A stretch of 61,953 bases of DNA from NCBI GenBank assembly GCA_902589175.1, contig CACIRX010000006.1, positions 1 to 61,953 of the forward strand, in the 5' to 3' direction. The notes under the pieces were generated by a model, which saw nothing but the letters and a program-made list of their open reading frames with translations, was not told where the DNA came from and searched no databases. Source of the DNA: an uncultured Pelagibacteraceae bacterium (GTDB taxonomy: Bacteria; Pseudomonadota; Alphaproteobacteria; Pelagibacterales; AG-422-B15). The position numbers were made by a program, and so were the translations under genes. Shown here one piece after another: positions 34,917 through 58,294 of the stretch (position 1 is its first letter; each line of letters begins with the position of its first letter).

Positions 34917-35441
34917 TTAGGCGCTTTTTGGCCTAAAATTTATATATTTTTCAGCCAAAAGATAGGCTCCAAATGCAGCTATTCCATAAATTGCACTTGA
35001 TAATATGGTATTCTGCAAAAATGGCAGGGCCATTATATAGCATGTTATTAAACCGTTAAAATCTAACGCGTACATTCCGGAGCCATACCATACCGCAAAA
35101 TTAGTAATCAAGTAGAAAGATAGGACGCCTCCACTTATTCCAATAACACCATTCAAAATACTCAGCTTATTTTGAATAAATGTTCCAAATAATACACAAA
35201 TACTGAGAGCAAAATAAACAACAAATATGCTTGAATGAAACCCAATAAATAAATCGCTCAGTATCATTGCAGATAATGTAATAATATATGCGAAAATCTT
35301 TTTGTCTAATACAGCTCCTGCAAAAAATCCCATAGCAAGAATTGGTGTAAAGTTTGGTGGATGGGGTAACAACCTGCTTAAAGCTAAAATTAAAATAATT
35401 GAAATACCAAATAGTAAATTTTTATTTATTTTCATTTTCAT
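34917..35441 (-). CDS. DUF6580-type multispanning membrane protein, candidate vitamin B12 transporter component
   Basis: A small (174-residue) integral membrane protein with about five or six helices. After the first helix comes the recognisable block RLLPHPPNFTPILAMGFFAGA, then LSDLFIGFH, which I associate with the DUF6580 family, proteins resembling the substrate-binding S components of ECF transporters. It lies 18-24 bases downstream of the TonB receptor, both under one cobalamin riboswitch, so it is a good candidate for moving B12 or a precursor across the inner membrane. The start is ambiguous: ATGAAA is repeated so that ATGs occur at 35447, 35441 and 35435; the AAGG touching the first ATG is best spaced for 35441. 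Function is inference from context. Confidence 0.7.
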   Translation of the reverse strand: MKMKINKNLLFGISIILILALSRLLPHPPNFTPILAMGFFAGAVLDKKIFAYIITLSAMILSDLFIGFHSSIFVVYFALSICVLFGTFIQNKLSILNGVIGISGGVLSFYLITNFAVWYGSGMYALDFNGLITCYIMALPFLQNTILSSAIYGIAAFGAYLLAEKYINFRPKSA

Positions 35442-35465
35442 TTTCATCCTTATATATCTAATAAA

Positions 35466-37712
35466 TTAAAATGTATATTTAAAATCGACAAAGTAATTTC
35501 TTTCTGGCAAAGGGTATACATTTGACAGTCCATAATGGGCATCGTCATGAAACGTGCTTGATATAGCATAGTCATAATATTTTTCATTAGTTAGGTTATT
35601 TATCCCTATCTTATAATTGTATGGACCACTGGTTTTACTAAGAGAAGTGTTAATTAGGTAATAGTCAGGTATTTTTGGTTCAATATTTTCTTGATCGTTT
35701 GAAACATATTTCTCATCGACATATTTAATTCCAAAATTGAAAGATGTACTGTTGTCTATCTGTCTGTCATAATCAATACTAAAAGTAAGTGGAGGAACTA
35801 AGGGTACTTTACGCCCTGCTAAGTTTACTGATTGATTTGCAGTACCGTCTGAACCTAGGTAGTTTATTGCTGTATTTGTGCCATACCCATAAGTTTCGTT
35901 ACCAAGGTAATAAATGATTCCCTCAAATTCAGTGGTGCCAGTACCCATGGATAGCGAGCCACTTGTAAACTCTGCTTCTGTAACATTTATTGATGCCGAA
36001 ATATTCTGTCTCTGATCGATTATATAATTAAAATCAACGTTTATTCCTTCACGCTCAATTGGATCAAGGTTTGTATTGACTGATTGATCGTACTGTATTT
36101 CATTTTTTGTATCCATTTGATAATAACTAGCATTTAAATTCAAAGTCTCATTTTGATACAGAATTCCCAGTTCCACACCCTCGGACTCTTGATCTTCCAA
36201 ATGGAAAGATCCTGAAGTTGTAGCTTTAATATTCTCATCAATATTTGGGATCCTAAATGACTCAGAATAATTACCATAAAAAGATAAGTTTTTATTTAGC
36301 CCTTTTTCAAATCCAAAATTATAGGCATAGTTATTTCTACTGTTATCGTAAGTATCATGATCAATTGTCGTATAAATACTCTCAAACCCTGCGACTGATC
36401 TATACACTTCGTCTCTGGCATCTGTTTCAGATCTCTCTTGTCTTGCACCAAATGAAAGGGCTAGGTCATATTGATTATAGAAAATCGTATTTTGTATTAA
36501 AAATGCTCTTGTTTTAGAACTGGCATGATATTTATGACCAAGTGCTTCATTTTCTTTTCTGTATCTCTTAGAATTATAAAATGCATGACCTATTTCAAAA
36601 CCCAAGTTTAATATGTTTGAAAAATCGGTTTCAACATGTCTATTTTCATATCGAAAATTAAATGAATTGCTATCAGTTTCTGTCTTTAAATATCTGTCGC
36701 CAGCTACTGGTGTATCGATTGTATTTTCATTACCTGCAAGAAAGGCTTTATCAAGCCTATCTCTATAACCAAGGTTAATAAATATATTATTTAAAGAATT
36801 TATTTCATATTCAACATTGGCATTGACTCGAATGTTGTCTGCATCTGCGTAGTCATCTCTTTGATTTGTATTACATGTGTTTCCATTTTTATCTGTAGAG
36901 CCTCCAATGTGCTTTGCAGTTCTGCTATTCTCGTAACGATTGCAATAATGATAATTATACACCGCCCCACCTTTCACTCGAGGTCCAGGCAATTCTTGCT
37001 CTTTGAATGATGAAAAAAGATCTAAGTTAACTACAGTGTCTTTAATTTTATTCATATAATTGACAACAAAATTTTGATTTTCGTAATCAGCTGCGTCTCT
37101 GTAAGTATCACTAGAATTAGCAGAAGCAGAAAAAGATATGGAGCTGTTGTTATCTATTTTTGTACCAGTATTAACGTTAAGCTTTTGTGTATTGTAAGAG
37201 CCATATGAGAAACCAACATTATTCTCAGCTATATCATTTTTTGTAACAACATTAATAGATCCCCCTACAGCGCCCGAGCCATAAAGAGTAGCTGATGAGC
37301 CGCCTCTCACAATTTCAATCCTATCAATTGAAGTTAAGGGTATATTGGAAAAACTGATGTTAGACATATCTATTTCATTTAACCTAATTCCATTCACAAG
37401 AATTAAGACATTTGATTTAGATGCCTCCCCAAAACCTCTCATATCAATCGAAGAATTTGTACCTTCAACGCCATCAAAAAGTCTCCTTATTTCTATACCA
37501 GAATACATCTCTAATATTTGGGGAAGATTTTTATCGTAATTATTTTTGAGTTCAGACTCATCAATAATTGTAATGTTTGATCCGGCTAGTCCTGAAGAAA
37601 GTCTTGTATATTGATCATTACTGGGCTTAATTAATATCTCAGGAACATCTGCAAAAGCGCAAAATACCAGTAATAAGTATGTTATTAAAAGCGTATTTAA
37701 TTTTTTAATCAT
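35466..37712 (-). CDS. TonB-dependent outer-membrane receptor, probably for cobalamin (BtuB-like)
   Basis: A 748-residue TonB-dependent receptor. Residues 1-21 form a signal peptide (MIKKLNTLLITYLLLV). The plug domain follows, with LPQILEMYSGIEI near 62-74, IDMRGFGE, NVLILVNGIRLNEIDM and DRIEIVRGGSSATLYGSGAVGGSINVVT around 130-158. A 22-strand barrel follows, ending in YFVDFKYTF with a terminal Phe. The start at 37712 is chosen because GGAGA lies 7 bases upstream and the signal peptide begins there; an ATG 33 bases earlier adds a non-signal extension. A cobalamin riboswitch lies directly upstream, which makes B12 the likely ligand. The inner-membrane partner is probably the DUF6580 protein downstream. 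Confidence 0.93.
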   Translation of the reverse strand: MIKKLNTLLITYLLLVFCAFADVPEILIKPSNDQYTRLSSGLAGSNITIIDESELKNNYDKNLPQILEMYSGIEIRRLFDGVEGTNSSIDMRGFGEASKSNVLILVNGIRLNEIDMSNISFSNIPLTSIDRIEIVRGGSSATLYGSGAVGGSINVVTKNDIAENNVGFSYGSYNTQKLNVNTGTKIDNNSSISFSASANSSDTYRDAADYENQNFVVNYMNKIKDTVVNLDLFSSFKEQELPGPRVKGGAVYNYHYCNRYENSRTAKHIGGSTDKNGNTCNTNQRDDYADADNIRVNANVEYEINSLNNIFINLGYRDRLDKAFLAGNENTIDTPVAGDRYLKTETDSNSFNFRYENRHVETDFSNILNLGFEIGHAFYNSKRYRKENEALGHKYHASSKTRAFLIQNTIFYNQYDLALSFGARQERSETDARDEVYRSVAGFESIYTTIDHDTYDNSRNNYAYNFGFEKGLNKNLSFYGNYSESFRIPNIDENIKATTSGSFHLEDQESEGVELGILYQNETLNLNASYYQMDTKNEIQYDQSVNTNLDPIEREGINVDFNYIIDQRQNISASINVTEAEFTSGSLSMGTGTTEFEGIIYYLGNETYGYGTNTAINYLGSDGTANQSVNLAGRKVPLVPPLTFSIDYDRQIDNSTSFNFGIKYVDEKYVSNDQENIEPKIPDYYLINTSLSKTSGPYNYKIGINNLTNEKYYDYAISSTFHDDAHYGLSNVYPLPERNYFVDFKYTF

Positions 37713-37784
37713 AATTTGTCTCCAGTTTGAAGTCACCGCAAACAAATTTTGTCCAAATGATTATCCCGATCATCTGTGGATGAC

Positions 37785-46131: not shown

Positions 46132-47462
46132 AAAGATTCGCCTTCGAAAAGCTTCTGGGTATTCAATTTATCATTTTGAAAATATATTTTTTTGGCTTTT
46201 TCTGCTGCAGTTTCCTTTCTATCAATTACTTGAAATAAGTAATCTAAGTGAACGGTTTCATCATCTCCATATAAATTTTTCTTAGATCTTCTCTTGAGTC
46301 CCTCAAATGAAATATTTAGAAGTTTCTCTGCTAATTCCCAGCCAGTTTTATTTTTGTATGTAGAATTGAGTCCATTTGATAGAACATCACTCCTAAATTT
46401 AATTAAATCGTCATATTCAAATTCACTAATCAATTTGAAAGTTTCTTCTAATGAGTCTTCTTGATATAAGATACCCGACCAAAAAGCTGGTAAAGCACAG
46501 AGCGTGTCGTAACTTCCTGCATCAGCACCTCTCATTTCAATAAAAGTTTTTAATCTCACCTCAGTAAAGATAGTAGAGATATGATTTATCCAATCTTCAA
46601 TTAAAATATCATCGGGAGCAAATTGATTATTTTTTCCATCTAAAAGGTTTTGGAATGTATATTTTGTACAATTATGATAATTATTATTTCTGATAATTGC
46701 GTATACGGGAATTTGCAAAGCATAATCGACGTATTCCTCAAAGCTCAAAGTTTCTTCAGTCAAAAACTTTGGAATACCAGTTCTGTCTGCATCAGTTTTT
46801 GTCCAAACATACCCTCTATAAGTTTCAAAACCAGAAAGCTTTCCATTTTTAAATGGAGAATTTGAAAATAATCCTGTAACAATTGGCTGAACGAATGCTG
46901 ATACATTAATTTTTCTTTGCATATCACTTTCTGAAATATAGTCGAAATTTGCTTGAACTGTTGCCGACTGATACATCATTTCTAGACCTAGTCCAGATAG
47001 AGATTTCATATAAGGAGTCATAATTTCTGAATATCTTTTCTTTGGAACCATTGGCACATCTTTTAGCTCACCAATTGGAAAGAAGCCCAGTCCTAAAAAG
47101 CCAATATTATATTTTTCTTCTAATTTTTTTGTAAATGCGAGGTGATTATTTATTTCCTTACAAGTTTCGTGGATCGTTTTAAGGGGTGCTCCAGATAATT
47201 CAAATTGACCGCCAGGCTCAAGTGTTATACTTGCCTTATCTTTATTGAGTGCAATAATATTTTCATTCTCTTTTACTGGTGTCCAACCATCCATCATAAA
47301 GTCGTCAAAAATTGATTTAATACTTACATCGCCGCTGTAGGAAACTAAACTAAGATCACTTTTGTGATAAATAAATTTCTCATGTTCGGTACCTATTTTA
47401 ATTTCAGAGGTGTTCTTAATACCGTTTTCAAAATATTTTATCAGATCACTTTTGTTAAGCAT
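46128..47462 (-). CDS. gshA: Glutamate-cysteine ligase (plant/alphaproteobacterial type)
   Basis: First enzyme of glutathione synthesis, joining glutamate and cysteine with ATP. The 444 residues match the GCS2-type ligase shared by plants and alphaproteobacteria: IGTEHEKFIY near 22-31, ITLEPGGQFELSGAPL near 79-94, MYQSATVQANFDYISESDM near 159-177, and ANSPFKNGK-like FSNSPFKNGKLSGFETYRG. IEMRGADAGSYDT near the C-terminal third binds substrate. It overlaps the end of rsmE by 8 bases, an arrangement that couples the two. The glutaredoxin earlier in the window would use its product. Confidence 0.94.
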   Translation of the reverse strand: MLNKSDLIKYFENGIKNTSEIKIGTEHEKFIYHKSDLSLVSYSGDVSIKSIFDDFMMDGWTPVKENENIIALNKDKASITLEPGGQFELSGAPLKTIHETCKEINNHLAFTKKLEEKYNIGFLGLGFFPIGELKDVPMVPKKRYSEIMTPYMKSLSGLGLEMMYQSATVQANFDYISESDMQRKINVSAFVQPIVTGLFSNSPFKNGKLSGFETYRGYVWTKTDADRTGIPKFLTEETLSFEEYVDYALQIPVYAIIRNNNYHNCTKYTFQNLLDGKNNQFAPDDILIEDWINHISTIFTEVRLKTFIEMRGADAGSYDTLCALPAFWSGILYQEDSLEETFKLISEFEYDDLIKFRSDVLSNGLNSTYKNKTGWELAEKLLNISFEGLKRRSKKNLYGDDETVHLDYLFQVIDRKETAAEKAKKIYFQNDKLNTQKLFEGESF

Positions 47463-48174
47463 TATAAATTTTGTCCATAATAATTGAAGTCGCGGTAATT
47501 GCAGCAGTTTCTGATTTTAAAATATTTGGCCCAAGTGTAACACCAATAAATTTTTTCTTTGATTTTAAACTTTCATACTCTTTAGCTGAAAAATCTCCTT
47601 CAGGTCCTATGATTATACCAATTGCTTCATTTTTGGTCAGTTTTCTATTCTTTATTTTTTCTTCATTATTATCTAACGAGCAATATAAATAATCTGCTAA
47701 AGAGTTATCATTAATCATAGTGGTAAATGATATAGGTTTATTAATTTCTGGTATCTTATTACGATTAGACTGCTCACACGCTTCAACAGCAATAAGTCTC
47801 ATTCTTTCAAAATTTATATTCTTCATATTAGTTCTTTCCATAATTACTGGTTGAAAAATTGAAATTCCGATTTCTGAGCACTTTTGTATCATTATTTCAA
47901 GAGGTGTACGTTTTATAGGAGAAAAAAATAGAGTTATATTATGATCTTCACTTTCGATTTTTTTTTGATCAATTATTTCTAATTCACATGTATTTTTTGT
48001 AATATTGATAACTTTTGTTAAACAAAGTAGCTCACGATTGAAAACTGAAACATAGTCACTTTTTTTTGTTCTCAAAACACTCTTTAAATAGTGTATCTGG
48101 TTAGCATCAAGAATGATTTGATCGTTCGAATTTATTTTTTTATCTACAAAAATTCTGTTTTTAATTTTTTTCAT
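47455..48174 (-). CDS. rsmE: 16S rRNA m3U1498 methyltransferase
   Basis: SPOUT-family methyltransferase that makes N3-methyluridine at position 1498 of 16S rRNA. With the chosen ATG at 48174 the protein has 239 residues and begins MKKIKNRIFVD, as the family does. HYLKSVLRTKK is the N-terminal PUA-like part. KCSEIGISIFQPV, IGPEGDFSAKEYESL and LGPNILKSETAAITA form the SAM knot. The frame is open further upstream, but a start at 48231 would overlap the divergent ubiA gene and give no family-like residues. gshA follows with an 8-base overlap. Confidence 0.93.
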   Translation of the reverse strand: MKKIKNRIFVDKKINSNDQIILDANQIHYLKSVLRTKKSDYVSVFNRELLCLTKVINITKNTCELEIIDQKKIESEDHNITLFFSPIKRTPLEIMIQKCSEIGISIFQPVIMERTNMKNINFERMRLIAVEACEQSNRNKIPEINKPISFTTMINDNSLADYLYCSLDNNEEKIKNRKLTKNEAIGIIIGPEGDFSAKEYESLKSKKKFIGVTLGPNILKSETAAITATSIIMDKIYNA

Positions 48175-48215
48175 ATATATATTGGTTATAACACTATTTA
48201 TTTTATAAAGATAAG

Positions 48216-49067
48216 TTGAAAAAATATTCACAATTATTGCGATTAGAGCAGCCCGTTGGTTTTTTTCTGCTAATGTTGCCGTGTTTTTGGGGCGTGCTCG
48301 CTGCCTCGAATTCCTATCAACACTTATGGAGCAATATTTACTTATTTCTTATTTTTGCAATTGGATCAATTGTTATGAGATCGGCTGGATGTATCATAAA
48401 TGATTTTTTTGATAAAGATTTAGATAAGCATGTATCTAGAACATCTCAAAGACCACTCGCTAGTGATGCAATTTCTTCTTTTGAAGCCTTCATAATTTTT
48501 TCAATACTTAATTTGATTGGTCTGGCTATATTACTATCTCTAAATTTGCTCGCCATTATTATTGGTTTAATTGCTTTTATGTTATTTATTTTTTATCCTT
48601 TAATGAAAAGAATAACGTATTGGCCTCAACTTTTTTTAGGCATAACTTTTAATATTGGCTGTTTGATAGGATATGCTGCAATTGAAAATCAATTAAATTT
48701 TCAAATTATGATTTTATATCTCTCTGGTATTTTTTGGACTTTAGGCTATGACACAATATATGCTCACCAGGATCGTGAGGATGATTTAAATATTGGAATA
48801 AAATCGACTGCAATTTTATTCGGTAATAATACAAAACAATGGATCATTATTTTCTATAGCTTGATGGTATTGTGCTTGATATTATTTGGTTTATTGCATG
48901 ATCAAAATATTTACTATTTTATTTTATTGATATTCGTTAGTACCCATTTGTTTTACCAGATAAAAAGACTAGATATAGAAAACAAGGACAATTGTTTAAA
49001 TATTTTTAAAAGTAACCAATACTTAGGTTTGATGGTTGCCCTGACTTTATTTATAGGTATTTTATAA
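48216..49067 (+). CDS. ubiA: 4-hydroxybenzoate polyprenyltransferase
   Basis: Inner-membrane prenyltransferase that attaches the polyprenyl tail to 4-hydroxybenzoate in ubiquinone synthesis. The 283-residue protein has eight or nine helices, the first Asp-rich motif NDFFDKDLDKHVSRTSQRPLA near 66-86, YPLMKRITYWPQ near 128-139, and the second motif DTIYAHQDREDDLNIGIKSTA near 179-199. A TTG at 48216 is the likely start; the next Met comes after the conserved LRLEQPVGF. A patch at 48247-48310 is richer in G+C than its surroundings. pmbA follows 2 bases later. Confidence 0.93.
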   Translation: MKKYSQLLRLEQPVGFFLLMLPCFWGVLAASNSYQHLWSNIYLFLIFAIGSIVMRSAGCIINDFFDKDLDKHVSRTSQRPLASDAISSFEAFIIFSILNLIGLAILLSLNLLAIIIGLIAFMLFIFYPLMKRITYWPQLFLGITFNIGCLIGYAAIENQLNFQIMILYLSGIFWTLGYDTIYAHQDREDDLNIGIKSTAILFGNNTKQWIIIFYSLMVLCLILFGLLHDQNIYYFILLIFVSTHLFYQIKRLDIENKDNCLNIFKSNQYLGLMVALTLFIGIL

Positions 49068-49069
49068 AA

Positions 49070-50401
49070 ATGAATTTTGAAGAAACTGCTCAAAATATAA
49101 TAGATTTAACTCTTAAAGCAGGCGCATCAGATTGCGATGTTGTTCTTGCTAAGTCCTATGGTAAGTCAATAAGTTGTAGATTTCAAAAAATAGAAGATTT
49201 AGATGAGTCCAATGAAAAAACAATAGGTATTAGAGCATTAGTTGATCAACGCCAAGCGTTTGTTTCATCGTCAGATATTGAGACTGGAAATATTGATAAA
49301 CTTGTTTCAAAATGTGTTGAAATGGCAAAATTGGCTCCAATTGATGATACTGCTGTACTTGGAGACAGTTCTATGTTTGAACACGATGCAATTGATTTAG
49401 ATTTATTTGAAAAAGACGAAGTAAATACTGAAAAACTTATTGATGCTGTCAAGGAGTGTGAAGATGCAGCTTTGTCAGTAAAAGGTATTACAAATTCAGA
49501 GGGAGCTGGGGCTTCTAGTTCCAAGGGAGAGTTCTATCTTGCTACAAGTAATGGTTTTCAAGGTGGATATCAATCATCAAGCAGTTCGGTATCTTGTTCA
49601 GTTCTCGCTGGACAGGGTCAGGACATGGAGAGAGATTACGAATATGCTGTGAAAAGACACTCAAGTGATTTACCAAGTGCAAACGAAATAGGATTATCTG
49701 CTGCAAAAAAAACTCTCAAAAGGCTTAACGCCAAAAAAATCAGTTCAACAAAATTGCCTGTTGTTTTTGATAAACGAATAAGTAATGACTTATTGGGCTA
49801 TCTAGCAAGTTCAATATCAGGTACTTCAATAGCTAGAGGTACAAGTTTTCTAAAAGATAGTTTAGGAAAACAAATATTTAATAAAGACGTAACAATCATA
49901 GATGATCCAGCGATTAATAGAGGGCTTGGATCAAAACCATTTGATGGTGAAGGTATTAAAGTGAAGAAAAGAGAGTTAGTTACAAACGGCAAACTCAATA
50001 CTTGGATTTTAAATACATCAACTGCAAAAAAATTAGGATTAAAAACTACTGGAAACGCATCAAGATCAGTTGGTTCACCACCAGGTGTATCAACCTCTAA
50101 TTTATACATGACAAATGGTTTAAAAAGTTACGATGATATTTTATCCTCTATTAGTTATGGTTTTTATGCGACTGAATTGATTGGTATGGGAGTTAATTTA
50201 GTAACTGGCGATTACAGCATGGGGGCGAGCGGTATGCTTATTGAAAAAGGAGAAATTACGCATGCAGTAAGCGAAGTAACAATTGCTTCAAATCTAAAAG
50301 AAATATTTATGAATTTATCAGCAGCAAACGATTTAGAATTCAAATACCGCACCAATGCCCCAACAGTACTTATCGAGAGTATGACTTTAGCTGGAAAATA
50401 A
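49070..50401 (+). CDS. pmbA: TldD/PmbA family protein, PmbA (TldE) type
   Basis: The 443 residues match the PmbA/TldE half of the TldD-TldE peptidase, which degrades or matures small peptides such as microcin B17 and CcdA in E. coli. Typical segments are GASDCDVVLAKSYGKS near 18-33, TIGIRALVDQRQAFVSSSD, GGYQSSSSSVSCSV and GNASRSVGSPPGVSTSNLYM near 330-349. ELIGMGVNLVTGDYSMGASGMLIEKGE follows. The HExxxH zinc motif of TldD is absent, so it is the non-catalytic partner. No tldD is in the window. It follows ubiA by 2 bases and precedes the lipid A genes. Confidence 0.92.
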   Translation: MNFEETAQNIIDLTLKAGASDCDVVLAKSYGKSISCRFQKIEDLDESNEKTIGIRALVDQRQAFVSSSDIETGNIDKLVSKCVEMAKLAPIDDTAVLGDSSMFEHDAIDLDLFEKDEVNTEKLIDAVKECEDAALSVKGITNSEGAGASSSKGEFYLATSNGFQGGYQSSSSSVSCSVLAGQGQDMERDYEYAVKRHSSDLPSANEIGLSAAKKTLKRLNAKKISSTKLPVVFDKRISNDLLGYLASSISGTSIARGTSFLKDSLGKQIFNKDVTIIDDPAINRGLGSKPFDGEGIKVKKRELVTNGKLNTWILNTSTAKKLGLKTTGNASRSVGSPPGVSTSNLYMTNGLKSYDDILSSISYGFYATELIGMGVNLVTGDYSMGASGMLIEKGEITHAVSEVTIASNLKEIFMNLSAANDLEFKYRTNAPTVLIESMTLAGK

Positions 50402-50466
50402 GAGTTTTAGCCATTTATCAATATTTAGATTTAAATTTTTGATAATAGTATTATGAATACCTCTTC

Positions 50467-52197
50467 ATGACAGGATCGCAAATACTAATCAGGCTGTTTA
50501 AGGATAGTATTAAACCCTATACAATTAGACTGTTCAGTTCTCTATTTTTTATGGTCATCATAGCACTTGCAACTGGAGCAACTGCTTGGCTTTTGGATCC
50601 TGCAATTGATAAAATTTTTCTGGATAAAGATGAGTCAATGCTCTTATTAATTCCGATTGCAATAATATTAACCCTATTTATTAAGAGTGTAGCTACTTAC
50701 ATACAAATAATATTATTGAATGGAGTTGCTCAGAATATTATTGCTGATACACAAATAAAACTTTTTAAGAAAATTATAAATGCAGATCTTGCCTGGTTGC
50801 ATAAAATTCATTCAGCTAAAATAATATCGAATTTCTTATACGATGTTACATTGTTACAAGATTCTGTAAGTAGTAGTTTGGCAAATGGAGTAAAAGATAT
50901 ACTCACATTGATTTGTCTGGTTGGTGTTATGTATTATCAAGATTGGCAGCTAGCAACAATCTCAATAATTGCTTTTCCGTTGGTTGGGATACTCACTAGA
51001 CGTTTAGGAAAAAGAATAAAAAAAGCCTCAACAGAAACACAAGAGGAAACTGGTGTTCTTGCTTCTATATTATCTGAAAATCTAGATGGAACAAGAATTG
51101 TAAAAGCCTATCAACAGGAAACTCAGGAAATAGAAAAGCTTAGTAAATCCGTATTTCGAAGAATGCAAAAAATTTTGAAAGGTATTAATGCAAGAGGTGC
51201 TGCATCTCCATTTGCAGAATTTCTGGCAGGTTTCGGTATCGCTGGCGCACTCTACTATGCAGGTTTAAGAGGACTGCAAGGTGAATTGGCTTTAAACGAA
51301 TTTGTATCATTTTTGGGAGCAATGATGCTCGCTTTTCAACCTCTAAGACGCCTAGCTCAAATAAATGCAACCTTGCAAGAGGGATTTGCAGCAGCAATTA
51401 GAGTGTTTGGACTACTTGACCAAAAAAGCTACATTAATGAGAAGCCCAACGCATCTGATCTATCTCTCAGTAAATCAGATGTATCTTTTGAAAATGTAAC
51501 TTTATCCTATGAAGGGCAAAAAAACTCAGCTTTGAAAGAAATTAGCTTAAAAGTCCCACACGGTAAAACAACCGCTTTGGTTGGACCAAGTGGATCAGGC
51601 AAATCATCAATTCTAAATCTTATACCAAGATTTTATGACCCTGATACAGGAAGTGTAAAAATTGATAACCAAGATATAAAAGAATTATCAATTGCATCAG
51701 TAAGATCTTCTATCGCATTAGTAAGTCAAGAGCCTATTTTATTTGATATGTCTATTCATGATAATATTTTATATGGTAAGCCAGACTCTTCTGATGATGA
51801 AGTCATCAAGGCTGCAAAAGCAGCTGCGGCGGACGATTTTATCAATGAGCTTCCAGATAAATATAAAACTGTAGTAGGTGAAAAAGGTTATAGTTTATCG
51901 GGTGGGCAAAAACAGAGGATTTCAATTGCAAGAGCCTTTCTAAAAGACGCACCAATACTTTTACTCGATGAGGCTACCTCAAGTCTTGATACAGAATCTG
52001 AACATCTAGTTCAAAAAGCGATAAGTATACTCATGAAGGATAGAACTACTCTCGTAATAGCTCATAGACTCAGTACGATTATAAATTCAGATCAAATAAT
52101 TGTTTTGGATTCAGGTAAGGTTATAGAAACTGGTACTCATGAAGAATTATTAAATAAAGATGGCATTTATAAAAAATTATATGAGCGCGAATTTTAA
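50467..52197 (+). CDS. msbA: ABC transporter, lipid A flippase MsbA-like
   Basis: A 576-residue half-transporter. The membrane domain (about 1-320) has six helices. The ATPase domain carries the Walker A loop VGPSGSGKSS near 375-384, the Q-loop in VSQEPILFD, the signature LSGGQKQR and Walker B LLLDEATSSLD, with the switch His in IAHRLS. ABC exporters of this form include MsbA, which flips lipid A-core to the periplasmic face. The run of lipid A genes directly behind it (DUF374, waaA, lpxK and lpxL-like) makes MsbA the best reading. The 65 bases upstream probably hold the promoter of the block, as pmbA ends before them. Confidence 0.9.
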   Translation: MTGSQILIRLFKDSIKPYTIRLFSSLFFMVIIALATGATAWLLDPAIDKIFLDKDESMLLLIPIAIILTLFIKSVATYIQIILLNGVAQNIIADTQIKLFKKIINADLAWLHKIHSAKIISNFLYDVTLLQDSVSSSLANGVKDILTLICLVGVMYYQDWQLATISIIAFPLVGILTRRLGKRIKKASTETQEETGVLASILSENLDGTRIVKAYQQETQEIEKLSKSVFRRMQKILKGINARGAASPFAEFLAGFGIAGALYYAGLRGLQGELALNEFVSFLGAMMLAFQPLRRLAQINATLQEGFAAAIRVFGLLDQKSYINEKPNASDLSLSKSDVSFENVTLSYEGQKNSALKEISLKVPHGKTTALVGPSGSGKSSILNLIPRFYDPDTGSVKIDNQDIKELSIASVRSSIALVSQEPILFDMSIHDNILYGKPDSSDDEVIKAAKAAAADDFINELPDKYKTVVGEKGYSLSGGQKQRISIARAFLKDAPILLLDEATSSLDTESEHLVQKAISILMKDRTTLVIAHRLSTIINSDQIIVLDSGKVIETGTHEELLNKDGIYKKLYEREF

Positions 52198-52203
52198 AAG
52201 CTG

Positions 52204-52881
52204 ATGATAAAATATATTGCTGGATTTAAATTAACCCAATTATTAATCTCCTTGTTTGGATCACTATACGTATTATTTGTTTATAAGACATCAACAATCA
52301 ATTTAAAGAATAGAAAAAATATTGATAGGTTATTTAAAAAAAATGAGTCATTCATTTATGCATTTTGGCATGATCAACTTTTAATTTGTCCTCTTACATG
52401 GCAAAGTGAATTTGAGATAAAAGTATTAATCTCTAAGCACAGAGACGGCGATATAATAGCTAAATTAATATCAAAACTTGGATTTAAGGCTATTAGAGGA
52501 TCGACCCACAAATCTGGTAAAACTAAGAATAAAGGTGGTCTGACATCAGCGCGCCAAATGATAAAATCTCTTAAAAACGGTATTTCAATTGGAATCTCGC
52601 CCGACGGTCCTAAAGGGCCACGCCACAAGGTCAGCGACGGCATCCTGAGCATCTCCCGTCTAAGTAATTCATCGATACTTCCTGTAGGAATAGGTTTTAA
52701 AAAAAAATGGGTACTGAATACTTGGGATAAATTTATTATACCGAAACCATTTAATCAAATCACGATAATCTGGGGTGAAGCAATTCCAGCCATAAAAAAT
52801 GAAAAAAGTATTAATCAGACTAAGAATAAATTAGAAAGTAAAATGGAAAATTTAACCAAAAGAGCAAATAGAAATAATTAA
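52204..52881 (+). CDS. DUF374 acyltransferase, LpxJ-like
   Basis: A 225-residue membrane-associated acyltransferase of the DUF374 family. One N-terminal hydrophobic helix (about 10-28) is followed by FWHDQLL near 58-64, LISKHRDGDIIAKL near 77-90, GSTHKSG and SPDGPKGPRHKVSDGI near 131-146. In Campylobacter and Helicobacter a DUF374 protein, LpxJ, adds a secondary acyl chain to lipid A without needing Kdo. Its place between msbA and waaA supports a similar role here. Bases 52595-52660, coding for the SPDGPKGPRHK region, are strikingly G+C-rich with foreign codon use. The next gene starts 2 bases after its stop. Confidence 0.85.
   Translation: MIKYIAGFKLTQLLISLFGSLYVLFVYKTSTINLKNRKNIDRLFKKNESFIYAFWHDQLLICPLTWQSEFEIKVLISKHRDGDIIAKLISKLGFKAIRGSTHKSGKTKNKGGLTSARQMIKSLKNGISIGISPDGPKGPRHKVSDGILSISRLSNSSILPVGIGFKKKWVLNTWDKFIIPKPFNQITIIWGEAIPAIKNEKSINQTKNKLESKMENLTKRANRNN
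52595..52660. other. Short G+C-rich patch inside the DUF374 gene
   Basis: 43 of 66 bases (65%) are G or C, against roughly one third around it. The reading frame is kept, and codons such as CCC, GAC, CGC, GTC, AGC, GGC, ATC and CTG, uncommon in neighbouring genes, fill it. The patch covers the most conserved motif of the protein, so a short recombination tract from a G+C-rich relative is possible; a chimeric assembly join is the main alternative. Confidence 0.8.
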
Positions 52882-52883
52882 TA

Positions 52884-54131
52884 ATGCTACCTTATTATAG
52901 TTATAAGTTAATTACGACACTCATAAGACCATTTATTGTTTTCTATATTCTTATTAGAATTTCAAAGGGTAAAGAAGATAGATTAAGGGTAACAGAAAGA
53001 TATGGAATAAGTAATATTGAGAGAAAAGACGGTAAAGTCATATGGTTTCATGCCGCTAGTATTGGAGAAAGTTTATCAATATTACCTTTACTAAAAAAAT
53101 TAAACGCTGATAAATCCATTGATCAAATAATTCTTACTACCGGGACACTTACTTCTGCAAACATCCTCAAAGATAAATTATCAAAAAAAATTGTACATCA
53201 ATTTATGCCATTTGATATTCCATCTTATATACATAAGTTTCTAAATCACTGGAACCCTTCTTTGGCTGTATTTGTCGAGTCTGAAATTTGGCCTAACTTT
53301 CTAACTGAGCTTAAAAAAAGAAATGTATGTTCTCTAATTGTTAATGGAAGAATGACAATTAAAAGTTTTAAGAGATGGTCAATGCTCAGTGGATCATCAA
53401 AAAATCTATTTTCTAAAATTACTGCATGTTGTACTCAAAACAGTGATAGTGCTTTTTTTTATGAGAAGTTAGGTATTAAAAATACTATTAATACAGGAAA
53501 TCTTAAATTTGCCTATAAACCTGATGAAATTATTTCAGATGAACTAAAAAAACTGAAATCCTTTACAAAGAAACGTAAAATATTTCTTGCAGCCAGTACA
53601 CATCCTGGAGAGGAAGAAATAATTAAAAACATTACACTTAATTTAAAAAAAACCGTAAAAGACCTTCTAACAATTATTGTGCCCAGACACGTAACTAGAA
53701 AATCATTTTTTTCATCATCTAAAGGACTTGGCTTATCAATCAGATCAAAGAAAGAAAAGATCAATGATCGAACATATTTATATCTTGCTGATACAATAGG
53801 AGAATTGAACATATTTTATAGTTTAGCAAATATCGTTTTTATTGGAGGCAGTTTAGTGCCACATGGCGGACAAAATCCTATAGAAGCTGCTTATTTAGGT
53901 AAAAAAATATATCATGGCAAAAATATAGAGAATTTCATTGATGTTTACGATGTTCTTAATCAATTAAAATTTACTCAACAGGTAGAAAATGAACGACAGC
54001 TAGAGCATTACGTTAAAGAAGCGTTAGCTAACCCAAAGTCTATAAATAAGGATATTAATATAAATAGACTAAAAAAAGAAGGTGATGATACAGTAAGTAA
54101 AGTACTGGACGTTATTTATCAATATTTATAG
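52884..54131 (+). CDS. waaA: 3-deoxy-D-manno-octulosonic acid transferase
   Basis: Transfers Kdo from CMP-Kdo to lipid IVA at the inner face of the inner membrane. The 415-residue GT-B glycosyltransferase has an N-terminal membrane helix (about 8-25), IWFHAASIGESLSILPLL near 52-69 with the catalytic Glu, FVESEIWPNFLTELKKR near 130-146 and INTGNLKFAYKP. The C-terminal donor half shows FLAASTHPGEEE, IVPRH and FIGGSLVPHGGQNPIEAA. Whether it adds one or two sugars cannot be read. The lpxK gene follows at once, with a TTG directly after the TAG and an ATG 6 bases on. Confidence 0.95.
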   Translation: MLPYYSYKLITTLIRPFIVFYILIRISKGKEDRLRVTERYGISNIERKDGKVIWFHAASIGESLSILPLLKKLNADKSIDQIILTTGTLTSANILKDKLSKKIVHQFMPFDIPSYIHKFLNHWNPSLAVFVESEIWPNFLTELKKRNVCSLIVNGRMTIKSFKRWSMLSGSSKNLFSKITACCTQNSDSAFFYEKLGIKNTINTGNLKFAYKPDEIISDELKKLKSFTKKRKIFLAASTHPGEEEIIKNITLNLKKTVKDLLTIIVPRHVTRKSFFSSSKGLGLSIRSKKEKINDRTYLYLADTIGELNIFYSLANIVFIGGSLVPHGGQNPIEAAYLGKKIYHGKNIENFIDVYDVLNQLKFTQQVENERQLEHYVKEALANPKSINKDININRLKKEGDDTVSKVLDVIYQYL

Positions 54132-54137
54132 TTGCGC

Positions 54138-55109
54138 ATGGAAAAAATAATATTGAATATATGGTATTCCAATCAAATTTTTTATAGATTGGTATCGTAC
54201 GTACTTATTCCAATATCTTTATTATATATATTAATCTTTTATTTAATCAGAGTTTTCAAAACTGAATACAAAATTGATATCCCAATTATATGTATTGGTA
54301 ATATAAACTTGGGTGGCACTGGAAAGACCTCAACTCTTTTAGAAATTATTAAACATTTCAAAATTAATAACAAAAATATTTGTGTATTATTAAAAGGATA
54401 TGGCGGTAAAAAAACAATGTTTAAAAAAGTATCACCAGATGAGTCAGCGGTCCTAGTGGGTGATGAGGCAATTCTCTATTCAAATCATGTACCTACTTAT
54501 ATTTCGACGAACCGTAAGTTAGCTGTGAAAAAAATTTTAGATGATGTTAAACCTGATTTTATTTTACTTGATGATGGTTTCCAAGATAAGTCTCTTTTTA
54601 AAGATAAAAACATTTTGATGGTAAATGGGGAACGTGGTTTTGGAAACGGATTATGTTTGCCAGCTGGACCATTAAGAGAATTAATTAAGCCTGCGTTAAA
54701 AAAAGCCCAGTTTTTAATTATTGTTGGCGATGATAAAACAAAAATTAAAAGTATGTATAAAAATATAAATATTGATACCCTTACTGCTTCGATAAAACCA
54801 TTATATGTCGACAAAAATAAAGAATATTTAGCTTTTAGCGGTATTGGAAACAATCAAAGCTTCTTTAATACACTTATCGATAATAATTGCAACGTACTTA
54901 AAACAGTTGAATTTCCAGATCATCACTTTTTTTCTGAAAATGATCTTAACAAACTTAAAAAAACTGCATCAGAAAGAAATCTTTCACTTATTACGACTGA
55001 AAAAGATTTAGTTAGAATTCCTAAAGAAAAAAGGGGGGGGATTGAATGTTTAAGAGTGGAGATAAAATTACATAATATGGACGAATTTATGAATAAACTG
55101 GTTAACTAA
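54138..55109 (+). CDS. lpxK: Tetraacyldisaccharide 4'-kinase
   Basis: Adds the 4'-phosphate of lipid A. With the ATG at 54138 the protein has 323 residues; a TTG at 54132, directly after the waaA stop, would add two. The N-terminal helix (about 15-36) anchors it. The P-loop region is IGNINLGGTGKTS near 54-66. Later come LLKGYGGK, DEAIL, DFILLDDGFQDKSL near 138-151 and GPLRELIKPAL. TTEKDLVRIP is the C-terminal motif. An A6G8 tract near the end (55027-55040) encodes KRGG and is a candidate slippage site. The lpxL-like gene follows after 5 bases. Confidence 0.94.
   Translation: MEKIILNIWYSNQIFYRLVSYVLIPISLLYILIFYLIRVFKTEYKIDIPIICIGNINLGGTGKTSTLLEIIKHFKINNKNICVLLKGYGGKKTMFKKVSPDESAVLVGDEAILYSNHVPTYISTNRKLAVKKILDDVKPDFILLDDGFQDKSLFKDKNILMVNGERGFGNGLCLPAGPLRELIKPALKKAQFLIIVGDDKTKIKSMYKNINIDTLTASIKPLYVDKNKEYLAFSGIGNNQSFFNTLIDNNCNVLKTVEFPDHHFFSENDLNKLKKTASERNLSLITTEKDLVRIPKEKRGGIECLRVEIKLHNMDEFMNKLVN
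55027..55040 (+). repeat. A6G8 homopolymer tract inside lpxK
   Basis: Six A followed by eight G, the longest G or C run I see in this AT-rich window (the next is a C6 in nadE). It lies about 25 codons before the lpxK stop, downstream of the TTEKD motif. Gain or loss of one G would replace only the C-terminal tail. It may be a phase-variation tract or a place where a read or assembly error is likely. Confidence 0.85.
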
Positions 55110-55114
55110 CTCTT

Positions 55115-55993
55115 ATGAAGATTTTTCTAAAAAGATATATTCGATATCCCTCCGAATTTATTCTATTTGTTTTTTTCTATTTTTTATTCAAATTACTACC
55201 TCTTTCCATTGCTAGAAAACTAGGAGTTAGTATAACGACAAGCTTAGGCCCCTTATTTACAATTAATAAATTAGTTAAAAAAAATTTAAGAATTGCTTTT
55301 AAGGATAAAGATGAAAAATGGATTAATACTAAAGCAAAAAAAGTATGGGAAAATTTAGGGCATACAATAGCTGAATACTCACATCTCAAAAAAATATTAA
55401 AAGATAAAATTAATGTAATTGAAAATGATCTTTATAGAGAAGCCTTCTCGGGTAGCGAAAGATCAATCATCATATCTGCTCATAATTCAAATTGGGAAAT
55501 ACCAGGAATGTCCATAAGAAAAACAATGCATCGAGCATCTGCGATTGTTAGAGAACCTAACAATCCTCTAATTAATTTTGTTTTAAAGCAACTTAGAGAC
55601 AAATATAGTCTTAGATGTTTGAGTAAAAACAGAATAGGCACAAAACAGTTACTTAATAATTTTAAAAATGGTGAGTCAATTGCCCTGTTAGCTGATCTTC
55701 AGTTATCGTCAGGTATTAACCTTAATTTTTTTGGAAAAAGAATGAAGTTTTCATCTTTACCTGCGCAACTTGCCCTAAAATCTGGATGTAAAATATTTTT
55801 AGGATGGCCTATAAGAAAAAATGATGGAAAATTTGAATTTGAAATTCATCAATCAATACATGCCAGCGATTATATAGATTCTTTAGATAACGTGGAGAAA
55901 ATATCGAAAATTATTATTACTTATTATGAAAGCATGATTAAGAAATACCCTGAACAATATTTTTGGTTTCATAATAGGTGGAAACTGGACTGA
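55115..55993 (+). CDS. Lipid A late acyltransferase (LpxL/HtrB family)
   Basis: A 292-residue member of the LpxL/LpxM family, which adds secondary acyl chains to Kdo-lipid A from acyl-ACP. An N-terminal membrane helix spans about residues 14-32. The HX4E catalytic motif is seen in IISAHNSNWEIPG near 119-131, followed by REPNNPLIN, LLADLQLSSGINLNFFGKRM and the ending YPEQYFWFHNRWK. It closes the msbA-DUF374-waaA-lpxK block, 5 bases after lpxK, and is convergent with the M23 peptidase gene 7 bases further. Which acyl chain and position it uses is unknown. Confidence 0.92.
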   Translation: MKIFLKRYIRYPSEFILFVFFYFLFKLLPLSIARKLGVSITTSLGPLFTINKLVKKNLRIAFKDKDEKWINTKAKKVWENLGHTIAEYSHLKKILKDKINVIENDLYREAFSGSERSIIISAHNSNWEIPGMSIRKTMHRASAIVREPNNPLINFVLKQLRDKYSLRCLSKNRIGTKQLLNNFKNGESIALLADLQLSSGINLNFFGKRMKFSSLPAQLALKSGCKIFLGWPIRKNDGKFEFEIHQSIHASDYIDSLDNVEKISKIIITYYESMIKKYPEQYFWFHNRWKLD

Positions 55994-56000
55994 TTTTTAT

Positions 56001-56804
56001 TTAATTTTCTAATAACAAAAGTGGATCAACATAAGTATTAAAAACCATCACACCCCAATGTAGATGTGGTCCGGTTGACCTGCCTGTTGATCCTACTTTG
56101 CCTATTATATCTTTTTTGCTAACTTTTTGATTCACTGCAACATTTACGGAAGACAAGTGGGCGTAAATAGATTTTACTCCATGTCCATGATCAATGATTA
56201 TTGTGCCTCCGGTATAATATAAATCACTTTCGGCATGAATAACTATTCCTTCATTACAAGACATTACTGGTGTTCCTTCATCAGCAGCAATATCAATACC
56301 CCTATGTGGGCTTTTTGCTTTACCATTAAGAATTCTCTGGCTGCCAAAAACTCCACTGATAATGCCAGTTGTTGGTTGAATAAATTCTTCCTTAAAATAT
56401 GTCAAATCCATGTCTAATTTCTTCGCTTCTTTTATTACTTCATTTTCAGCAATAATTCGCTTTATGATATTATCATCAAGAGGCGTAACCATCTGTTCAG
56501 GTAAGCCATCAATTCTTTGAATATCATAATCTTTTTTTTCGATAGATATTTGGTGGATTAAGAAAATACCATCACTGTTGCTGTACGTAACATTTATTGG
56601 CTCTATCTGCTCTCGAGATATTGGGAAAACATAGTATCCATCATGACTGATTTTAATCGGCTGTCCATCAACAAAGATCTCATTTGCTTCATTATTTTGA
56701 CCTATAACAAGACTTCCTTGTGGAAAACTTTTAGAAAGTTCAGATGAAAACGCGCATACGTTAAAACAAAATAAAAGAAGAAAAACTCTATTTATTAAGA
56801 CCAT
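56001..56804 (-). CDS. M23 family metallopeptidase (exported)
   Basis: A 267-residue exported LytM-type peptidase. The chosen ATG at 56804 follows AAGAG by about 5 bases and opens a signal peptide (MVLINRVFLLLFCFNVCAFS). The frame is open to an ATG at 56846 but that adds a non-signal stretch overlapping the DUF2093 gene. The C-terminal domain has the zinc His and Asp of SPHRGIDIAADEGTPV, YAHLSSVNVAVNQKV and GSTGRSTGPHLHWGV. It probably cuts peptidoglycan peptides or activates amidases during growth or division. The 59-residue region before the domain looks like a linker with beta-structure. Confidence 0.9.
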   Translation of the reverse strand: MVLINRVFLLLFCFNVCAFSSELSKSFPQGSLVIGQNNEANEIFVDGQPIKISHDGYYVFPISREQIEPINVTYSNSDGIFLIHQISIEKKDYDIQRIDGLPEQMVTPLDDNIIKRIIAENEVIKEAKKLDMDLTYFKEEFIQPTTGIISGVFGSQRILNGKAKSPHRGIDIAADEGTPVMSCNEGIVIHAESDLYYTGGTIIIDHGHGVKSIYAHLSSVNVAVNQKVSKKDIIGKVGSTGRSTGPHLHWGVMVFNTYVDPLLLLEN

Positions 56805-56997
56805 TAAGCTCTTTATATCTGTTAAGCGCAACTTCAGGAGATGCATAGACTTCTTGAAGCTCTACGTTCCAATACTTAAGATTTTCAAGTGTAATTTTTT
56901 CTCCCGTTATTGAACATTCCACAAAATCACCGAGTGTCTTAACTTGAAAATGACCATGATTAAGAACAATTTCAGCTTTTGTCCCAAAATTATTCAT
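56788..56997 (-). CDS. DUF2093 family protein
   Basis: A 69-residue protein of the alphaproteobacterial DUF2093 family. The pattern reads AEIVLNHGHFQVKTLGDFVECSITGEKITLENLKYWNVELQEVYASPEVALNRY when split into its parts: VxCxxTGExIxLxxLRYW and QExYASPExxxxR are the conserved features. One Cys may coordinate metal, otherwise nothing is known. It overlaps the end of xseA by 8 bases and the M23 start by 17. DUF2093 beside xseA is a usual alphaproteobacterial arrangement, as I recall. Confidence 0.88.
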   Translation of the reverse strand: MNNFGTKAEIVLNHGHFQVKTLGDFVECSITGEKITLENLKYWNVELQEVYASPEVALNRYKELNGLNK

Positions 56998-58294
56998 CTT
57001 TAATTTCCTTCACTTCAGCAGAAATTTTTGCAAAGCTTGTTTCAATAATTATGTTTGTATCGTTTTCTATATCTTTTTTAGATTTAATAACTTTATTTTT
57101 TAAGTTTTTTGTAACAGAGTACCCTCGATTTAAGACTGACTTATAGCTCATACTTTCTAATAACTTTTCATTATAATTAATTTGATTGCGCATATTTTCT
57201 AAAAATAAGTTTGTAGAACTATTTAATTTATCAAATTTTGAAATCAGTTTTTGTTGAAAATTATTTACTTGTTCCTCTAAAATACGATAGTTAAGTGACT
57301 GAGTAATTTCTTTAAATTCTGATAACAGGCTTTTTATAAATAATTTCAAAGAGACTGGCAACTTATCACTTAGATTTTTAAATGAACTTAATTTATTTTC
57401 TAAATTACTATTAATTGAATCACGAAGGTCTTTTTGAAGGTCTTTTAAATTGATTAAAAGCTCATCTTTATTAGGTGTACACAACTCTGCTGCCGCAGTT
57501 GGAGTTGGCGCTCTGAGATCAGACACAAAATCAATAAGCGTCGTGTCTGTTTCATGTCCAACAGCTGATAAAACAGGTATTTCACTGGCGAATACAGCTC
57601 TTACAACAATTTCCTCATTAAATGCCCAGAGATCTTCTATGCTCCCTCCACCTCGGGCTACAATAATTAAATCTGGAACTTTAAATTCGCTCCCTTTTAG
57701 AGAATTATTAAACCCATTTAAAGCATCTGCTATTAAATGCGCGGCATCATCTCCTTGAACAGGAACTGGCCAAAGAATAACATCACACGGAAATCTATCT
57801 TCAAGTCTATGAATAATATCTTTTATAACTGCTCCTGTTGGTGAAGTAATAATACCAATTGTTTCAGGATACAATGGAAGAGGCTTTTTGTGATCTTGAT
57901 CAAAAGTACCTTCAGACATTAATTTTTTCTTTCTTTGTTCAAGCAATGCCATTAGTGCACCCTCTCCCGCTGGTACAATTGAATCTATAATAATAGAATA
58001 ATCCGATCTTCCAGGGTATCTATCAGAATACCCAGTTGTAAGTCTCCCTGAGCAAATTACTTCAAGGCCTTCATCTGGCATAAAGCTTAGTTTTGCCACA
58101 GTGCTTCTCCATGCAATCGCTTTTATAATTGCATTCTCATCTTTAAGGTTAAGATATACATGGCCTGATGCTGGCTTGCTTAAACCAGATACTTCTCCAC
58201 GAACTTTCACATAGCCAAAGTTATCCTCAAGGGTCTCTTTAATTGAGGCTGAAATTTCAGTAACTGTATATTCTTTGATGTTCTCTCTTACCAT
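56990..58294 (-). CDS. xseA: Exodeoxyribonuclease VII large subunit
   Basis: Large subunit of the single-strand nuclease that works in mismatch repair and other pathways. The 434 residues start with the OB-fold (YTVTEISASIKETLEDNFGYVKVRGEVSG is the family opening, quoted here as separate parts YTVTEISA and VRGEVSG). The catalytic domain has GIITSPTGAVIKDI near 149-162, RGGGSIEDLWAFN near 236-248, VGHETDTTLIDFVSDLRAPTPTAAAE and a long coiled-coil region from about 290 to 380. RGYSVTK lies near the end. No xseB is seen in the window. It diverges from purD over 52 bases. Confidence 0.95.
   Translation of the reverse strand: MVRENIKEYTVTEISASIKETLEDNFGYVKVRGEVSGLSKPASGHVYLNLKDENAIIKAIAWRSTVAKLSFMPDEGLEVICSGRLTTGYSDRYPGRSDYSIIIDSIVPAGEGALMALLEQRKKKLMSEGTFDQDHKKPLPLYPETIGIITSPTGAVIKDIIHRLEDRFPCDVILWPVPVQGDDAAHLIADALNGFNNSLKGSEFKVPDLIIVARGGGSIEDLWAFNEEIVVRAVFASEIPVLSAVGHETDTTLIDFVSDLRAPTPTAAAELCTPNKDELLINLKDLQKDLRDSINSNLENKLSSFKNLSDKLPVSLKLFIKSLLSEFKEITQSLNYRILEEQVNNFQQKLISKFDKLNSSTNLFLENMRNQINYNEKLLESMSYKSVLNRGYSVTKNLKNKVIKSKKDIENDTNIIIETSFAKISAEVKEIKDE

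Follow-up and report, generated by a model that had tools for sequence, protein, structure and literature searches.

An apparently fading island of G/C-ending codons in a Pelagibacteraceae DUF374 gene resembles the old scar of a possible tiny DNA exchange more than it does a newly transferred or functional element

The window analysed here, a stretch of 61,953 nucleotides from the genome of an uncultured Pelagibacteraceae bacterium, contains a lipid A gene cluster in the order msbA - DUF374 - waaA - lpxK - lpxL, and the second of these genes holds a short G+C-rich island. The features are listed below, with GC3 denoting the share of third codon positions that are G or C.

50467-52197, + strand: msbA-like lipid A exporter gene (Pfam ABC_membrane/ABC_tran), the centre of an allele-divergence peak that adjoins the island
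52204-52881, + strand: DUF374 (LpxJ-like lipid A acyltransferase) gene holding the island, an ORF of 225 amino acids (Pfam PF04028)
52597-52659, + strand: the whole G+C-rich stretch, codons 132-152, SPDGPKGPRHKVSDGILSISR (65% G+C, GC3 16/21)
52597-52620, + strand: the SPDGPKGP half, a conserved motif (ancestral GC3 0.41; G+C mainly through Pro and Gly codons)
52621-52659, + strand: the anomalous core (codons 140-152, RHKVSDGILSISR), with an ancestral GC3 reconstructed at 0.99 vs a background of 0.18
52884-54131, + strand: waaA/kdtA, 3' of the DUF374 gene (Pfam Glycos_transf_N, E 2e-52)
54132-55109, + strand: lpxK (Pfam LpxK, E 3.2e-75)
55115-55993, + strand: lpxL-type acyltransferase gene (Pfam Lip_A_acyltrans, E 5.7e-38)

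The host gene was assigned to DUF374 by its PF04028 profile match (E 9.4e-25, 86.4 bits vs a cut-off of 26.8), while NCBIfam profiles gave zero matches to the protein at E 0.001; for the upstream msbA-like gene, the best NCBIfam match was MsbA_lipidA at 538.6 bits, under its cut-off of 602. The DUF374 family, to which the island's host gene belongs, corresponds to the LpxJ late lipid A acyltransferases, for which passages of PMC6148475 give conserved residues in R. typhi LpxJ at W60/H61, H84/D86, D132, and W172/D173; unlike in the present gene, codon islands go unmentioned in those passages. When the two unaligned proteins are compared by order and spacing, the window's protein has FWH at 54-56, HRDGD at 79-83, PDGP at 133-136, and TWD at 173-175, that is, the same order at similar spacing. 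The product of the host gene is predicted, from gene context (msbA, waaA, lpxK, and lpxL-type neighbours), to carry out 3' secondary acylation of lipid A. A 50-residue region of DUF374/LpxJ found a match in 40 of 397 genomes of the order, all 40 of them in the window's own family.

Across codons 132-152, 41 of 63 bases are G or C (65%), as are 16 of 21 third positions (76%); the remainder of the DUF374 gene has 28% G+C and a GC3 of 0.22. Encoded with the codon preferences of this genome, the island peptide would have 43% G+C and a GC3 of 0.20, and the jump in G+C divides into roughly 15 points from amino-acid composition and 22 points from synonymous choice. A preliminary description, made from the letters of the window, had reported this stretch at 52595-52660 with 65% G+C and A+T-rich codons on both sides of an unbroken frame. 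The place and the G+C content were confirmed, but the limits overshoot the codon frame (52597-52659) by two bases at one end and one base at the other. It was also correct that codon usage shifts while the frame stays open: the edges are abrupt in the window, and outside the roughly 13 enriched codons the values are close to background.

The island is the strongest patch of its kind found in the genome. In a scan of 1,094,650 of the 1,116,728 genome bases (98%), the best 21-codon window by amino-acid-adjusted GC3 excess comprised codons 131-151, with z = 7.15 and rank 1 of 319,300. The runner-up (z 6.84) occupies the opening codons of a long ORF with a mechanically assigned start, and may lie upstream of the true start of that ORF; the third-ranked window reached z 5.72, and among the listed top 25 a single window besides the island exceeded 6. 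By plain G+C content over 66 bases, the island ties for second among separate places in the genome. Codons 140-151 form a run of 12 consecutive G/C-ending codons, the longest in the scanned genome (the next has 11); both Arg codons of the island are CGN, where AGA makes up 62% of Arg genome-wide, and its Leu codon is CTG (4.8%). A search of the same 1,094,650 bases for a second copy returned 12-base chance matches only. Chance clustering of G/C-ending codons on a Pro/Gly-rich peptide would agree with the roughly 15 points that stem from amino-acid composition, but it has to contend with the top z-score among all scanned windows and with the 12-codon run, and we consider it very improbable.

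Two other genes of unusual codon usage were observed in the course of this work. A TANGO2-family gene (PF05742; L136:5664-6416, - strand, genome contig C3) contains the 11-codon G/C-ending run that is the second longest found, and a Peptidase M24 gene (L033:10699-12066, - strand, genome contig C1), which may be a recent arrival, has a GC3 of 0.43 over its full length vs 0.23 genome-wide.

Comparison with the alleles of relatives showed that the island is old and graded, and not private to one genome. Island GC3 is 0.57-0.76 in group A (7/7 alleles, the window included; 95.6-100% protein identity), 0.43-0.52 in group B (7/7 alleles; 90-92%), 0.24 and 0.52 in the two alleles of group D (89%), and 0.24-0.48 in clade C (14/14 alleles; 69-71%), with the rest of the gene at 0.17-0.28 across these groups. 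In the nine sister alleles of groups B and D the island is eroded or nearly lost: eight of them keep a raised GC3, and in L015 most of the island is gone (GC3 0.24). Clade C has a GC3 of 0.25 in the core, near background, and of 0.45 in the SPDGPKGP half. Ten further members of the genus or family, which share 13-18 of the island's 21 residues, have an island GC3 of 0.10-0.29. Because the island is present in all seven of the closest alleles and partly in eight of the nine sisters, the event that gave rise to it must be old.

This distribution refutes a recent transfer, or an assembly or amplification chimera, confined to this one genome. Its abrupt edges in the window would suit such an origin, but six further genomes with near-identical alleles carry nearly the same codons and group B carries an eroded version, such that this explanation is practically out of the question; the assembly chimera that the preliminary description had put forward as a refuting alternative is thereby excluded. 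That description had also treated the presence of the same codons in close relatives as a sign of constraint instead of transfer. The codons are indeed shared, with small differences, by 7/7 group A alleles, yet this is no evidence of constraint: synonymous divergence within the island is not lowered. Synonymous difference between group A alleles is 0.109 inside the island vs 0.077 outside, and between groups A and B it is 0.467 inside vs 0.290 outside; the island thus departs from the reduced divergence that marks a constrained functional element.

Local selection on synonymous sites, acting on translation speed, co-translational folding, or an overlapping nucleic-acid signal, could nevertheless keep rare G/C-ending codons just after the catalytic motif. 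The raised GC3 in 7/7 group A and 8/9 sister alleles speaks for such selection, as do those clade C alleles that reach 0.48 over 21 codons, but the allele mostly devoid of the island (L015) speaks against it, and a synonymous divergence inside the island at least as high as outside, i.e., normal-to-fast change, would go unexplained. The candidate signals were likewise unfavourable. Single-strand RNA folds of 52590-52666 were no stronger than those of shuffled sequences on either strand (z +1.07 and +1.15), and Rfam gave zero matches to the island, its sole line being sub-threshold and outside it; a structured RNA element was rejected on these grounds. An antisense gene at 52374-52652 was rejected as well, given that it is intact with an ATG in only 4 of the 33 alleles checked, all in group A, and that this opposite-strand ORF has stops in every checked allele of groups B and D and clade C and in L006. 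Lastly, conserved sites in general have no GC3 excess, which removes general codon selection at such sites: the odds ratio was 0.98 for the window vs a clade C genome; against 800 kb from a distant alphaproteobacterium, where 409 of 1,029 ORFs found a match, it was 1.03 by amino acid and, once gene was also taken into account, 1.026. A GC3-rich motif at the N-terminus of purA, tried separately as a comparison, had a GC3 of 0.14-0.57 in the loci of 30 relatives and led nowhere.

We then compared maintained selection and decay using a two-state likelihood model (third base G/C vs A/T) on a single, midpoint-rooted tree of 16 alleles; the remainder of the gene supplied the rate and the equilibrium (pi 0.18). 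Only codons for an amino acid common to all 16 alleles were used, which left 19 of 21 usable in the island and 11 of 13 in the core. For the island, lnL was -110.8 under stationary neutrality, -101.1 under equilibrium selection, -99.2 under a jump at the root followed by neutral decay (root GC3 0.84), and -98.2 under a stationary model in which rate and composition were both left free, which has one more parameter than decay. Decay is weakly preferred over equilibrium selection across all 21 codons (an lnL advantage of 1.9), and on these fits the island as a whole cannot separate decay from a stationary high G+C content. That stationary models are not clearly worse here is a further point for local selection.

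The two halves of the island behaved differently under these models. For codons 140-152, lnL was -72.3 under stationary neutrality, -64.3 under equilibrium selection, -60.2 under the stationary model with free rate and composition (again with one more parameter than decay), and -58.5 under a root jump with neutral decay, the best of the four models, with a root GC3 of 0.99. For codons 132-139 the root GC3 was 0.41, with no clear ancestral excess, and equilibrium selection was slightly best (-36.5 vs -38.0 and -38.5). Equilibrium selection was also simulated, with the window sequence as the condition. An advantage of decay as large as the one observed arose in 1 of 300 replicates for the core and in 19 of 300 for the island; the limits of the core were set after the pattern was seen, and its result is to be read accordingly. 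Simulations of decay fell at or below the observed advantage in 159 of 300 (core) and 32 of 300 (whole island), the simulated advantage over 21 codons being mostly larger than the observed one. The core therefore fits decay better than maintained selection, and we regard local selection as a rather unlikely explanation. The real anomaly is codons 140-152, directly downstream of the conserved PDGPKGP motif. Accordingly, the preliminary equation of the anomaly with exactly SPDGPKGPRHKVSDGILSISR was too broad, as it captured the anomalous core (0.99) together with codons 132-139, which are not clearly anomalous (0.41), and the anomalous half lies beside the most conserved motif and not on it as had been supposed.

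To identify a possible source of these codons, we searched 385 genomes of the class, 398 of the phylum, and 397 of the order (overlapping samples, with phylum matches listed up to E 1e-9), and identified no donor among them. Searches of phages, plasmids, and viral contigs yielded nothing of weight, with one phage match at E 0.8. Matches in the class came from 217 genomes, from which 30 loci were fetched, the window's own included, and 29 compared. Of these 29 DUF374 loci, the ones with more than 50% G+C agree with the island at no more than 13 of its 21 residues, and the best overall agree at 14; hence we know of no donor that has both the peptide and the codons. The peptide RHKVSDGI belongs to the window's genus and its nearest neighbour and is missing from the sampled G+C-rich alphaproteobacteria, and because it is so limited among sampled loci, any donor is hypothetical.

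At the DNA level, the 385 class genomes returned the window itself and two short matches, both judged to be chance or motif similarity. One, of 22 bases (21 identical), lies in the DUF374 gene of a genome with 65% G+C, covers the PDGPKGP half only, and is followed by the residues RCRVKPGI; the other, of 29 bases (90%), lies in a G+C-rich genome of the class, outside any DUF374 gene as far as tblastn shows. A better match of the 66-base tract to a G+C-rich genome, the check proposed in the preliminary description, did not turn up in the genomes and collections searched, which are a partial sample. An exact-pattern scan of the genome collection, using the motif with several fixed G/C-ending codons, recovered only four SAR11 records, all Pelagibacteraceae (AG-895-F07, AG-896-A02, AG-919-C04, and AG-422-N09); the AG names presumably designate single-cell genomes, and we take Pelagibacteraceae here to be the SAR11 group. 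Literature searches of open-licence papers returned no mention of this island in their results.

Alleles of genomes that are otherwise alike diverge most at msbA, and DUF374 sits on the shoulder of this peak. Synonymous difference at msbA is 0.50 to genome G012 and 0.53 to G040, vs medians of 0.124 and 0.138, and over ten genes the difference between the window genome and G012 goes from 0.15 to 0.50 at msbA and back to 0.09. The msbA/DUF374 locus is exchange-prone between similar SAR11 genomes. The peak spans 47457-58294 of the window, with its centre at 50467-52197 and a gradual fall on both sides for G012, and the msbA protein is 74% identical to that of the otherwise close G040, below the 85% identity to the distant G038. 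A second variable spot was observed at 34919-37745, where two adjacent genes fall to 46-48% protein identity vs otherwise close genomes.

The position of the gene on this shoulder raises the possibility of a past local burst of GC-biased gene conversion, which would have acted in place, at a hot spot by the msbA peak, and would call for no foreign donor. This would agree with the local character of the peptide and with the outcome of the donor search, and PMC4450053 argues for GC-biased conversion in most bacteria; it could similarly raise GC3 locally in recombining genes. The effect described there, however, concerns whole genes, and the enrichment here is a patch of about 13 codons with near-background flanks, tighter than expected of a hot spot. 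In addition, the changes from AGA-type Arg to CGC and from Leu to CTG need more than one step each. We therefore consider in-place conversion distinctly unlikely, whereas the CGN and CTG codons are as expected if the tract came ready-made.

We tentatively favour, at somewhat less than even confidence, the reading that the island is the fading relic of an ancestral replacement by G/C-ending codons, which would most likely have been copied in by a single short conversion event from a G+C-richer relative outside the sampled genomes. The replacement of about 13 codons (140-152) by almost wholly G/C-ending synonyms would date to the common ancestor shared by groups A, B, and D, which comprise 16 genomes, once their sister clade C had split off. 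Since then the tract would have worn away through A+T-biased change at the ordinary neutral rate, remaining strong in the window genome, being about half gone in group B, and leaving almost nothing in L015. We infer both recombination as the cause and the existence of a donor, the likeliest source being a single very short gene-conversion tract from a relative with the same local peptide. The very short conversion from a G+C-rich donor proposed in the preliminary description is in part consistent with this, in that a one-time, unmaintained tract fits the decay of the core, but the event is old, and the searches above identified no donor. The weak preference over all 21 codons, the unsampled donor, and the use of only 16 alleles on one tree count against the relic reading.

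A tract of 39-66 bases is short for RecA-type exchange. MutS was sought in 52 genomes of the order and gave 0/52 matches, with the control positive in 11 of 14; given this lack of a match, a mismatched heteroduplex might not be rejected, and mismatch repair appears to be absent in the lineage. Allele exchange around msbA would further ease replacement of a short tract. According to PMC12374537, SAR11 subclades Ic and IIa.A lack mutS and mutL, and recombination in SAR11 is promiscuous, which resembles the present case in the lack of MutS and in the swapping of divergent alleles between similar genomes; the exchange described there is within and between SAR11 species and does not involve a G+C-rich micro-tract.

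Short tracts of homologous recombination produce mosaic genes that later ameliorate. Like such genes, the island is an in-frame, foreign-looking codon patch with sharp edges that drifts towards host composition, but its tract is shorter than usual, no donor was identified, and the peptide remains that of the local lineage. A broader proposal, which we advance as speculative and rather doubtful, is that in SAR11 lineages that seem to lack MutS, tracts of about 40-60 bases can be copied from much G+C-richer genomes into conserved coding regions and leave datable scars, of which this island, beside a lipid A locus that exchanges divergent msbA alleles, would be the clearest in the genome.

As an evolutionary curiosity the island is minor, and the decay that it predicts can be tested. 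Its site also marks a lipid A locus where SAR11 genomes that otherwise resemble one another trade divergent alleles. Were local selection the true cause, the island would clearly exemplify synonymous selection acting locally in a streamlined genome. If the island is instead a decaying relic, very short exchanges between compositionally distant genomes could go to fixation in a lineage where mismatch repair is not detectable, and their decay could serve to date them; in genomes of more usual composition, scars of this kind would easily escape notice.
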